A stretch of DNA of 42,541 nucleotides, from IMG/VR virus record IMGVR_UViG_3300005826_000005, positions 1 to 42,541 of that record; one strand, 5' to 3'. The notes beneath the pieces are model-generated. The model did not search any database. It was given only the letters and a program-made list of their open reading frames with translations, and had not been told where the DNA came from. Position numbers and translations under genes: made by a program. This document shows positions 11,262 through 42,541 of this stretch, piece after piece; position 1 is the first letter of the stretch, and each line of letters begins with the position of its first letter. Origin of the DNA: a virus.

Positions 11262-11735
11262 GTGACGATCGCCACCGTCACAGCGGACCAGAAGATCAGT
11301 GCGACGTGGGGTAACTCTGTTGCAGCCGCTATCAACGGGGCGTCGAGGATCGGCAGGTACACGGCGTCAGCTTTCGGCGTCCCAACCGCTTCAACTACGA
11401 ACATTGATTTGTCGGTCGATTACGACCCTAACTCGTGGTTTGCGAGTGGGGCGACCGTCACCCCGACCGTGGCAGGCTATTACCTTGTTTCGGGCGCGTT
11501 CACGTTCACTGGTGGTTTCGCAGCGACGGACAGGTTGGCGTGCTTCATCCGCAAGAACGGCACGCAGTTTGTGGGCGTGGAGGGCTATGCGGGATATTCC
11601 GCCCCGAGGCGCAATCTGGCCCATGTTGTCTACCTGGCTGGTACGGACACGGTGAGCCTGGCCGTGTATCAGGCGTCTGGCGCGTCTCGGACGGTTGATG
11701 CTTCCCTGGCGGTCGTGCAGATCACATTCGGTTAG
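11262..11735 (+). CDS. C1q-like jelly-roll virion protein
   Basis: Starts at GTG directly after the portal stop; 157 aa. The beta-rich pattern, with GYYLVSGAFTF, FIRKNGTQ and the terminal VVQITF, is that of C1q/TNF-like trimeric jelly-rolls used as head fibres or tail tips. It lies between portal and scaffold, so it may decorate the head or portal vertex. It has an overall plan like that of 16299-16967. Confidence 0.6.
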   Translation: MTIATVTADQKISATWGNSVAAAINGASRIGRYTASAFGVPTASTTNIDLSVDYDPNSWFASGATVTPTVAGYYLVSGAFTFTGGFAATDRLACFIRKNGTQFVGVEGYAGYSAPRRNLAHVVYLAGTDTVSLAVYQASGASRTVDASLAVVQITFG

Positions 11736-34019: not shown

Positions 34020-34258
34020 CCCCGACGGGGAAGTCGTGTTGAGGCGAGCCGAGCGAGTCGGCTCCACGGGGTGTCGTCGGCGGGCGGGGTGCCCGACTCG
34101 ATGATCTGCGCGACCTGCGTGCGAGACAGCTCGAACACCCAACAGATGTCTTCGATGAGCAGGCCCTCGCGGTAACAGGCGAGCACGGCGGCAGACACGT
34201 CCGTAGATACGGCTCCAGGGCCGCGTGAGACGTCTCGCTGGACTGGCTGGTCGGTCAT
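34016..34258 (-). CDS. 80-aa HTH protein co-translated with a recombinase
   Basis: Residues about 22-52 (VSAAVLACYREGLLIEDICW then VFELSRTQVAQIIESG) form a helix-turn-helix. The start overlaps the recombinase stop as ATGA, so it is made in fixed ratio with it. It could be a recombination directionality factor or a small repressor; the sequence does not decide. Confidence 0.7.
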   Translation of the reverse strand: MTDQPVQRDVSRGPGAVSTDVSAAVLACYREGLLIEDICWVFELSRTQVAQIIESGTPPADDTPWSRLARLASTRLPRRG

Positions 34259-35244
34259 GCCGCGGCCCCCTCGTCATCGAACCACGCGTCCGTGGCGACG
34301 TACCGCATCGTCGTGGACAGATCAGCATGTGACATCTGGTCCGCCATGACAATCGGTGGCATCCCGATCCGTAGGCAGTTCGTTGCGAACGAGTGCCGAA
34401 GTTGATGCGGGGTGAACGTGTCCATGATTCCAGCCTGGTGTTGCACCCGTTCGACCGTCCTGTTCACGGCGTGGGCGTCGACGCTGCCGCTGACGCCTTC
34501 GAACGCTGCGATGAGTCGCACTGCCTCCATCCTACGGCGGTAGTTGACCTGGGAGCCGATGAGGCGGATGAAATCGTGCGTCTCGGCCGTCACGCACGGG
34601 AGTCCCTTGCGTTCCATCTTGTCGATGATGGAGCCGTAGTAGACGACACCACCCTCTTTGCCTCCCTTGCGATCGAACCACTGGATGGTTCGATCGGAGG
34701 GGCTCACGTGCTCGACGCCGAGCAGCGCAACCTCGTGGCGGCGCAACCCTGCGTAGTACATGAACCCCAACGTGAGCCGATCCTCGATGCCCAGGTCTGA
34801 CGTCCAGACCTTGAGCCACTGTGCGTCCGTCACAGGCCGCGGGTTCCGTCGCGACCCGCGAGGGGCAACGACCTCCTTTGCGGGGTTGTGGTCGCACACG
34901 CCACGACCGTTCAGGTAGCCGAACAGCAGCCGCAGTGCGGCAACTCGGATGCGGAAACCCGACGCCGAAGGGTTGTCGATCTCGGCGAACGTTTCGACCT
35001 GCTCGACGGTGACGGTCGACCAGTCAAGGTCGCTGGTCGTCTCCCCACGGCGGGAGTGCGGGGAGAACTCGTGCGGTTCCTCCCACGTGTCAGGTTCGAT
35101 GCCTTGGTAGCCGACGAACTTCTCGACGGCATCGCCATAGGCACGCACGGTTGAATCGGACAGTCGTCGGTGGACTTTCATCCATCTCACGAACTTGATC
35201 GTTGTGGGCGTGGCAACGCGCGCCCTGAATGTTCGATGACTCAT
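34255..35244 (-). CDS. Tyrosine recombinase A
   Basis: A 329-aa protein with a SAM-like N-terminal core-binding domain (about 12-110) and a catalytic domain. Residues: R168 (AGLRRHE), K193 or K196, H280-x-x-R283 (HQLRHSFAT), H306 (QMSHADLS) and nucleophile Y315 (TTMRYVA), all present. The start at 35244 follows AGAAAGCGAGAACAACTGAA. It is 1.9 kb from attP, whereas recombinase B is adjacent, so its substrate may differ, for example dimer resolution or a second site. Confidence 0.88.
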   Translation of the reverse strand: MSHRTFRARVATPTTIKFVRWMKVHRRLSDSTVRAYGDAVEKFVGYQGIEPDTWEEPHEFSPHSRRGETTSDLDWSTVTVEQVETFAEIDNPSASGFRIRVAALRLLFGYLNGRGVCDHNPAKEVVAPRGSRRNPRPVTDAQWLKVWTSDLGIEDRLTLGFMYYAGLRRHEVALLGVEHVSPSDRTIQWFDRKGGKEGGVVYYGSIIDKMERKGLPCVTAETHDFIRLIGSQVNYRRRMEAVRLIAAFEGVSGSVDAHAVNRTVERVQHQAGIMDTFTPHQLRHSFATNCLRIGMPPIVMADQMSHADLSTTMRYVATDAWFDDEGAAA

Positions 35245-35292
35245 TTCAGTTGTTCTCGCTTTCTTGATTTGGGTTGGTGTGTTCGGACTTGC

Positions 35293-35997: not shown

Positions 35998-36029
35998 AGC
36001 ATTCTCGCTTTCTCTTGGTTGTCTGTTAG

Positions 36030-36979: not shown

Positions 36980-37107
36980 GATGTCTCGCTTTCTAGTAAG
37001 GCCACAGAGAGTGACCGATTCGGTGTGCCCGCCGAATGGCGAGCCGTAAACAGGGTGAAGCTCTAAACCAACGAAGGTGACGCTCTAACGATCTCCGACC
37101 AGGACGT

Positions 37108-37135
37108 TTGCACCGCCAGGTGCACGCTGTAAGAT
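37108..37135 (+). promoter_or_regulatory. Promoter upstream of the attP tRNA segment
   Basis: TTGCAC (37108-37113), 16 bases, TAAGAT (37130-37135), facing the tRNA segment that starts at 37166. After integration it could drive the hybrid host tRNA gene. Confidence 0.55.
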
Positions 37136-37165
37136 GCCGCAGACCAGGAAACCCCTGGACAAGCT

Positions 37166-37203
37166 GCGGACGTGGCTCAGTTGGTAGAGCATCACCTTGC
37201 CAA
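37166..37203 (+). other. attP: attP core: 5' half of tRNA-Gly(GCC)
   Basis: Thirty-eight bases read as a tRNA from the acceptor 5' strand (GCGGACG) through the D-arm (GCTCAGTTGGTAGAGC) and anticodon 5' stem (TCACC) to the loop TTGCCAA with anticodon GCC. The matching 3' half (GGTGA stem, T-arm, acceptor 3' strand) is absent, so this is not a functional tRNA alone. It sits beside integrase B and therefore marks the probable attP. Confidence 0.85.
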
Positions 37204-37230
37204 CGGGACTGGAGAACCTGTCCCGTTGGC
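37199..37230. repeat. Perfect inverted repeat starting in the anticodon loop
   Basis: GCCAACGGGAC, 10-base loop, GTCCCGTTGGC. The left arm begins with GCCAA of the anticodon loop. It may be an integrase core-site or a terminator that ends transcription from the tRNA promoter in the free phage. Confidence 0.6.
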
Positions 37231-37426: not shown

Positions 37427-37658
37427 TCGTTGTCTCGCTTTCTGGGTTGTCGAGCGCTTCGGTGAGCGCCATGTTGATTTCGTCTCGTGCGCTCACCATC
37501 GTGGCGAGCTGTTGGGTTTCGTGTCGGTAGGTGGCGGAGTCGGGATTGGCTCGGACGAGTCGGCGGTGGTTCCTGTCGATGGAGATGTTCAGCGCCTTGG
37601 CGGCCTCGACCATCTCGTCCATCGTCAGTTCCAGTGGGTAGCTCGGTTGGTTGTTCAC
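37407..37658 (-). CDS. 83-aa helical acidic protein
   Basis: The GTG at 37658 is within the 3' arm of a long hairpin; an alternative ATG start (MDEMVEAAKALNISIDRNHR) downstream has GGAA at a better spacing. The sequence is largely helical. Its last residues NPESETTNEQLDT are encoded by the start-associated sequence of the next gene. Function unknown. Confidence 0.6.
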   Translation of the reverse strand: MNNQPSYPLELTMDEMVEAAKALNISIDRNHRRLVRANPDSATYRHETQQLATMVSARDEINMALTEALDNPESETTNEQLDT

Positions 37659-38270: not shown

Positions 38271-38368
38271 TGTGTTGTCTCGCTTTCCTCTGTCAGTTCC
38301 TTACGGAACGGGTTTGGGTTTGGGTGGTACAACCAGGGTGTGGGTGACTGATCCCACCAGTCTGCCAT
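38261..38368 (-). CDS. 35-aa microprotein with strong ribosome-binding site
   Basis: MADWWDQSPTPWLYHPNPNP then a short charged end EESETTQCQ. GGGAGGAAAGT precedes the ATG, and CTCCCCGAAAGGGAG can fold over it. The end encodes the start-associated sequence of the next gene and overlaps it by 10 bases. Trp/Pro-rich, unlike a chance frame. Confidence 0.55.
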   Translation of the reverse strand: MADWWDQSPTPWLYHPNPNPFRKELTEESETTQCQ

Positions 38369-39460: not shown

Positions 39461-39494
39461 GGTGTCTCGCTTTCTGTTGTGGTGTTAGATAGTA

Positions 39495-40508: not shown

Positions 40509-40536
40509 GTCTTTCTCGCTTTCTTCGTGTGACCCG

Positions 40537-41482: not shown

Positions 41483-41523
41483 GATGTTCTCGCTTTCTGG
41501 TTAATATTGCTCGGTTTGTGAAT

Positions 41524-41581: not shown

Positions 41582-42541
41582 TCATCCGTCCTCGATGGTG
41601 AAACCGTGGTCGTTGTAGTTGAAGATCGACCAACCATCGGCGTCACGGACGAGAACCTCCATGTCCAGGTCGACCTCGGCGTCGAACGTGCCAGCACGCA
41701 GCGCCTCGCCTTCCTCGTCGGTCGGCTCCCGCCACCCAGCGGGCATCGCATGGGCCGAACCGTAGACCTTCGCAGCGTCGGACAGTCGGTCGCCAGCCTC
41801 GCCAAGTCCACGATCCCAGAACCCCGTGCCGTGACCGTTGCGGGTCAGCCAGAAGTCATGGCCGACCTGTTCCCACGTCAGCTTGCCGCTGTTGACCAGC
41901 GCACCCAGGGTGCGGCACGCCTCACCCTTGAGGAAGTCCTCGACCTCGTTGAACACGTCGTCATCGTTCTCGCAGTCATCGGGGTCGAAGTAGTCGTCCA
42001 TCATCCCGTTGCCGTCGCCCGAACCCATGCAGTCGTCGGGGGCCGACTCTGACCAGAGCGCCGCCACTAGGTAGTGGTGCATGACGTTGGTCACGATGTC
42101 ATCGGTGATCGGATGCGGCCACACTGCCAGCCGTTCACGGGAACCGCCGAGCGTCGAGCCGCAACCGTGGCACGACCGCCACGTGAACTCCTCGTGACCA
42201 TCGCCGTGCACGGTGGCACTGTTCGGGGTCGCCCAGTCACGCCACCAGCCAGGGGTGCCGACAGCCTTGCAGGTCAAACGACCGTTCGCATGAGCCCATT
42301 CGATGCCGACATCATCCAGGTCATAGTCGACATGCCACGACGCCATGATCCCCTCTTCGCAGTGTTCACACCTGCCGACCTCGGACGGGTCGTAGGTCCA
42401 GTCCGACAGGTCGTAGGCGTCATCGAGCAGACCGAGCGGTTCCTGGTCGCATGGCGTGTCGGATTCACCCGAATACCATGCGGCCCCGTCGTGTTCGCAG
42501 TTCTCGACGTTGCACTCTTCGCAGTGCCAATGGGCACCGTA
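41582..42541 (-). CDS. Acidic multi-CxxC protein, open at the right edge
   Basis: At least 319 aa, open to base 42541 with no start of its own required. CEECNVENC and, later, RCEHCEEG form a first zinc region; SCHGCGSTLGG a second. The rest is acidic with Asp-rich runs (near DYFDPDDCENDDDVF). The frame continues into codons 11 to 1 at 33-1 if the map is circular. An internal ATG at 42346 is a possible but less likely start. A perfect CCACTA palindrome lies inside (42064-42077). Confidence 0.75.
   Translation of the reverse strand, partial: YGAHWHCEECNVENCEHDGAAWYSGESDTPCDQEPLGLLDDAYDLSDWTYDPSEVGRCEHCEEGIMASWHVDYDLDDVGIEWAHANGRLTCKAVGTPGWWRDWATPNSATVHGDGHEEFTWRSCHGCGSTLGGSRERLAVWPHPITDDIVTNVMHHYLVAALWSESAPDDCMGSGDGNGMMDDYFDPDDCENDDDVFNEVEDFLKGEACRTLGALVNSGKLTWEQVGHDFWLTRNGHGTGFWDRGLGEAGDRLSDAAKVYGSAHAMPAGWREPTDEEGEALRAGTFDAEVDLDMEVLVRDADGWSIFNYNDHGFTIEDG
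42064..42077. promoter_or_regulatory. CCACTA palindrome inside a coding region
   Basis: CCACTAGGTAGTGG, read as H-Y-L-V in the acidic multi-CxxC gene. Perfect copy. Confidence 0.45.

Follow-up and report, generated by a model that had tools for sequence, protein, structure and literature searches.

Half tRNA gene, integrases and neighbouring genes

The virus record IMGVR_UViG_3300005826_000005 comprises 42541 bases with a GC content of 60% and was analysed over its whole length, which is called the window in the following. At positions 37166-37203 of the plus strand it carries a stretch which is identical in 38 of 38 positions to bases 1-38 of tRNA-Gly(GCC) (E 6e-14). The identity extends to the final base of the anticodon loop, and from base 39 onwards the window diverges, going on into CGGGACTGG and not into GGTGAGGG. 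No tRNA was called by ARAGORN in the whole window. The preliminary description had placed a phage attachment site (attP) with the 5' half of tRNA-Gly(GCC) here, which is borne out by the complete match and by the lack of a 3' half. An acceptor-like pairing GCGG/CCGC that would close the RNA of the half tRNA was noticed as well, and is too short to be claimed.

At least 120 genome stretches contain the exact 38-mer, and according to the record titles all of the matches listed are from Actinomycetota. Wherever these listed matches could be read through they are complete tRNA genes which continue into GGTGAGGG; the exceptions are two matches cut by the end of the locus and two with runs of N. The 38-mer points to a host among the Actinomycetota, and the 38 bases would then be the stretch common to attP and the bacterial attB. 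In some of the candidate hosts a single retrieved locus contains two copies of tRNA-Gly(GCC). As the shared stretch ends with the anticodon loop TTGCCAA (37197-37203, plus strand), this loop is a candidate for the 7-bp crossover (overlap) region, by analogy with integrases that recombine within anticodon loops. Actinobacteriophage L5, for instance, has its crossover in the anticodon loop.

The half tRNA lies 186 bp upstream of a gene for a tyrosine integrase of 297 amino acids, P0001 (36086-36979, minus strand; Pfam PF00589, 4.7e-26). The two are divergent, and the 5' end of the tRNA faces the integrase gene. The catalytic residues R149, K174, H242, R245, W268 and Y277 are all present in P0001 and are invariant in an alignment of 15 relatives. 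A second tyrosine recombinase of 329 amino acids is encoded at 34255-35244 on the minus strand and is 26% identical to P0001. Viral contig G820 contains a relative of it (E 2e-32), and the second recombinase could be the integrating enzyme. In that case the half tRNA might be left over from a former integration or from a phage tRNA gene that has decayed, with the phage now integrating elsewhere. Apart from the presence of the second recombinase, one related virus which has kept a relative of it and shows no match to P0001 speaks for this possibility. A relic is expected to show mutations, however, while the half tRNA matches perfectly and stops exactly at the anticodon loop; it also adjoins the gene of an integrase that has all of its catalytic residues, and the neighbouring arm repeats the core half-site twice (see below). 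We regard a relic as improbable.

The window contains a repeated box, AGAAAGCGAGA(C/A)A, for which 11 sites with at most two mismatches were counted in comparison to 1.1 expected in the window. Sites are located at 35252-35264, 36001-36013, 36982-36994, 37431-37443, 38276-38288, 39463-39475, 40512-40524 and 41486-41498 on the minus strand, and also at 38-50; nearly all of the sites are on the minus strand. In 10 of the 11 cases the box precedes an ATG by 0-7 nt, although some of the reading frames are short. The position of the box resembles that of the Start-Associated Sequences of Cluster K mycobacteriophages (PMC3203893), whereas its sequence differs. The box is absent from the terminase relatives examined.

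Relatives of the phage and junctions in related elements

Peptide patterns revealed no close relatives of P0001 among viral contigs or genome contigs, and neither the exact 38-mer nor a truncated tRNA-Gly pattern was found in viral contigs, where each of the 21 tRNA-Gly matches is either a complete gene or truncated at the end of the contig. With these searches no lysogen or prophage of the window phage was detected. The att region has no DNA similarity to named phages. Relatives of the terminase mostly matched at 58-68%. One is located on a contig in an Acidimicrobiia bin, and none was found among 395 Actinomycetes genomes. The terminase relatives have neither a tRNA half nor a relative of P0001, so that no junction could be obtained from them.

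More distant relatives of P0001 were sought in 395 Acidimicrobiia and 395 Actinomycetes genomes and in viral contigs, and they often adjoin a tRNA or a half tRNA. The preliminary description had suggested prophage junctions in host genomes as a check of the polarity, and such junctions were found for these relatives in three genomes, G644, G197 and G078, several of the genomes compared being draft bins. In all three, host upstream DNA is followed by a 5' fragment and element upstream DNA by an intact tRNA gene. The integrases with proven junctions are distant from P0001 (25-32% identity).

The clearest example is the tRNA-Lys(TTT) gene of G644, a complete chromosome in one 6.1-Mb contig. A 5' half of this tRNA is located at 6128823 with a first upstream flank. 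In G805, which belongs to the same genus, this flank directly precedes an uninterrupted tRNA-Lys gene, which identifies it as host upstream DNA. A second 5' half at 11694 has a second flank derived from the element, and the same element flank is found again before the intact tRNA-Lys at 48199; its two copies are near-identical for more than 400 bp. Relatives of the integrase are encoded immediately left of 11694 and left of 48199, and portal and capsid genes lie between these two positions. Provided that the contig is circular, two elements, about 25 kb and 36.5 kb long, sit in tandem at a single tRNA-Lys(TTT) of G644 and reach from 6128823 via the contig end to 48199 (loci L254-L256 and L259-L261), and the 36.5-kb element is recognisably a prophage. 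The junctions of G644 together with the uninterrupted site of G805 show that the native upstream region has been displaced and that the intact tRNA-Lys now begins in element DNA.

In G197 and G078 the target is tRNA-Arg(ACG). The intact gene adjoins the integrase gene, and a fragment comprising bases 1-39 or 1-38 is located on another contig, where a different flank precedes it. The two fragments break off at the final base of the anticodon loop, as does the half tRNA of the window. The tRNA-Arg genes of G078 and G551 both have a D-loop of deviating length. The far end of a tRNA-Arg element in G197 (contig C75, locus L252, 3644-4789) encodes a large serine recombinase, and the tyrosine integrase is at the other end.

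The junction of two tandem elements looks like an attP, as seen at 11694 in G644, and no end repeats are noted for the window record. One could ask if the site is a junction of tandem prophages, or an assembly error that joined a host tRNA fragment to phage DNA, and not the attP of a free phage. Against this, phage genes are encoded on both sides, the integrase and a helicase to the left and a gene with a PHROG match (41582-42346) to the right, and minus-strand genes with the start-associated box are likewise present on either side of the site. Even a tandem junction would have this polarity. We consider an artefact or tandem junction very improbable.

The junctions of the three relatives are the reason to regard the polarity as real. 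For the window phage itself, the presence of bases 1-38 without any 3' half means that, wherever the crossover falls within the 38 bases, the 3' half of the host is joined to upstream DNA of the phage, which, together with the same layout at the junctions of the relatives, agrees with the earlier proposal that the phage supplies the 5' half and the host the 3' half. It is very likely that the site is the attP of a temperate Actinomycetota phage with 5'-half polarity, at which P0001 recombines with a host tRNA-Gly(GCC) within the anticodon loop. The product on the integrase side would consist of upstream DNA of the phage with the weak candidate promoter, bases 1-38 from the phage and the 3' half from the host, giving a complete tRNA gene that is read away from the integrase gene. 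The sequence expected there is 37100-37203 of the window followed by GGTGAGGGTCGC. At the far end of the prophage, the host promoter and the host 5' half (the 38-mer) would be followed by CGGGACTGG.

Polarity among the integrase relatives

Forty integrase loci, the window included, could be classed. The 3' side of the tRNA is directed towards the integrase gene in 30 of them and the 5' side in ten; the resulting 25% for the 5' polarity is no rate, because the sample is not unbiased. Judging from the layouts, the tRNA would be transcribed away from the integrase gene in the 5' polarity and towards it in the 3' polarity. Viral contigs with a 3' half include L172, L179, L181, L184, L199, L207 and L210. 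The viral contig IMGVR_UViG_3300049142_000060 (L178) carries the 5' half of tRNA-Met(CAT) in its attP, about 9.6 kb into the locus. Its layout is the same as in the window phage, which makes it a second virus with a 5' half in the attP.

In the integrase tree the 5' label needs three changes, which correspond to a group of seven loci, to the pair of L178 and L242 (from G644), and to the window, whose integrase sits on a long branch with an unsure placement. Holding all ten 5' loci together is not rejected (AU p 0.31), and since a single origin is compatible with the data we do not claim three origins. Both polarities occur among related integrases, so that the choice of polarity can be studied within one family.

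Core half-site and arm copies

Next to the anticodon loop of the window lies the left core half-site TAGAGCATCACCTT (37185-37198, plus strand), a candidate binding site of the integrase. In the arm on the integrase side two inverted copies of it are found on the minus strand, one with 13 of 14 matches at 37074-37087, at a distance of 109 nt, and 22 bp further out a second with 12 of 14 matches at 37052-37065, at 131 nt. The core site and these two copies are the only matches to TAGAGCATCACCTT with at least 12 of 14 positions in the whole window, and in 60 shuffles of the whole window no match with at least 13 of 14 was obtained. The arm copies probably serve as additional sites of integrase binding.

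For the relatives, the best inverted copy of each element's own core half-site was determined in the arm on the integrase side, together with its distance from the loop; the geometry was mirrored for the 3' elements. A copy at 98-102 nt is present in 14 of 30 relatives (7/9 of the 5' elements and 7/21 of the 3' elements), a count which is inflated by kinship within the 5' group, although L178 and G644 from outside that group and the seven 3' elements agree. In 300 rounds with shuffled arms, this distance gave a mean of 1.1 and a maximum of 4, and no direct copy of the core half-site was found at 98-102 nt in the arms of the 30 relatives. The copies of the window, at 109 and 131 nt, fall outside this range.

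It is tempting to see in the inverted copy about 100 nt out the arm site of this integrase family. The 5' and 3' polarities would then share one att complex, simply turned round on the palindromic anticodon stem, and capture of the promoter (5' half) and its retention (3' half) would be two orientations of one machine, with the window phage as the clearest case. We put this forward tentatively, as a reading whose chances fall a little short of even. In the very likely reading given above, by contrast, it is already included that elements of the P0001 family carry the tRNA half on the integrase side of the crossover, that the orientation of the attP sets the polarity, and that the site is usable either way round because the anticodon stem is a palindrome. 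The mirrored arm site offers a concrete and testable reason for the choice of polarity. Nothing was found on such arm sites in a limited literature search, which shows little, and the mirrored architecture may be new.

Comparison with known integration systems

The host promoter is nearly always preserved when an element integrates into a tRNA gene. According to the Islander data, 159 of 3919 islands leave a 5' fragment of the tRNA gene and 3760 a 3' fragment (PMC4383910), so that the preliminary description was right to call this polarity uncommon, though it is not new. Like the 5'-fragment islands, the system described here combines a tyrosine integrase, a tRNA target, an element with the 5' part and a displaced 5' fragment; Islander also lists a crossover in the anticodon region, as here, as one of two classes of sites (PMC4383910). 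The differences are that the window is a phage genome with an attP and not a chromosomal island, and that its integrase is distant from those tested in the relatives.

Archaeal pTN3-like integrases regularly use the 5' half. In the part of PMC8371274 that cites Cossu 2017, attB is described as the 5' half of a tRNA gene and the rebuilt tRNA as expressed from DNA of the element; the passage citing Williams 2002 calls a similar situation seldom encountered in bacteria. The att site of the pTN3-like elements is internal to the integrase gene, and integration splits this gene; the tRNA is transcribed from the integrase promoter. The window differs in that the integrase gene is intact, divergent and beside the attP, the half tRNA being located 186 bp outside of its reading frame.

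Among actinobacteriophages, L5, Omega and others likewise rely on a tyrosine integrase, and the tRNA gene is restored by a long stretch common to both att sites (PMC10865867, Table 2). In this canonical type the 3' half is carried and the host promoter is kept, whereas the window contains bases 1-38 only. A further parallel is tRNA-dependent lysogeny (PMC10865867), in which the phage also takes responsibility for a tRNA that integration would break. There, however, the sequence shared by attP is only about 8-17 bp long and the phage genome includes an entire tRNA gene, while in the window the stretch is 38 bp long and the gene would be rebuilt from two halves. As no tRNA is encoded in the window, we rejected this system.

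The window thus has the 5' part of a tRNA gene without the 3' part and an intact integrase gene next to the attP, as found in 5'-half integration. Since the polarity has been documented for Islander elements and pTN3-like integrases, the phage is a new case of a rare but known kind.

The promoter-like site and the hairpin

Upstream of the half tRNA, the plus strand contains TTGCAC (37108-37113) and TAAGAT (37130-37135), separated by 16 nt, and 30 nt lie between the -10-like hexamer and base 1 of the tRNA. A two-block model, built on 121 regions upstream of host tRNA genes, has this very pair as its best site (p = 0.019). The score is 5.7 in comparison to a host median of 11.9 and a first quartile of 7.8. 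No support was given by a -10-only model from 91 upstream regions of host tRNA-Gly genes (p = 0.33), and a strict sigma-70 scan reported no site. Of random stretches of 100 nt, 0.7% contain a pair of TTG and TAnnnT that matches at 7 or more of 12 positions, a criterion which was chosen after the site had been seen. The hexamers, spacer and distance given in the preliminary description are correct, while as a promoter the site is weak. The similarity to host promoters is better than that of most chance stretches and makes it a candidate promoter.

Integration might also proceed as proposed and leave the rebuilt tRNA silent or read through from elsewhere, the need being covered by other tRNA-Gly copies. 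The low score of the site and its p values of 0.33 and 0.019 fit this, as do the element-side upstream regions of several relatives, which score poorly in the two-block model; phages can break a host tRNA gene if its function is supplied otherwise, as in tRNA-dependent lysogeny (PMC10865867). On the other hand, the model trained on host genes picks this very site, the element side in G644 scores 14.6, like a good host promoter and above the host median, and the window encodes no tRNA of its own. We regard a rebuilt tRNA that is not transcribed from a phage promoter as less likely than not. If the candidate promoter is active, transcription of a housekeeping tRNA would pass to the phage, and the tRNA would fall silent if the upstream region of the prophage were lost. 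Such a takeover is a possible route to dependence of the host on its prophage.

Directly after the half tRNA, an inverted repeat of 14 bp (13/14 paired, loop of 4) starts inside the anticodon loop (37199-37230, plus strand; fold z -5.1). No U run is present at this hairpin. A strong hairpin (z -3.4) occupies a similar position in L178, where a T-rich stretch comes after it, and none was found after the half tRNA in three related elements, so that among five sites only the window and L178 have one. The minus-strand genes at 37.4-42.5 kb are antisense to any read-through from the promoter of the half tRNA. In the free phage the hairpin is probably a terminator, which would stop the short half-tRNA transcript before it runs antisense into these genes, or it might instead be a structured right arm of the core.
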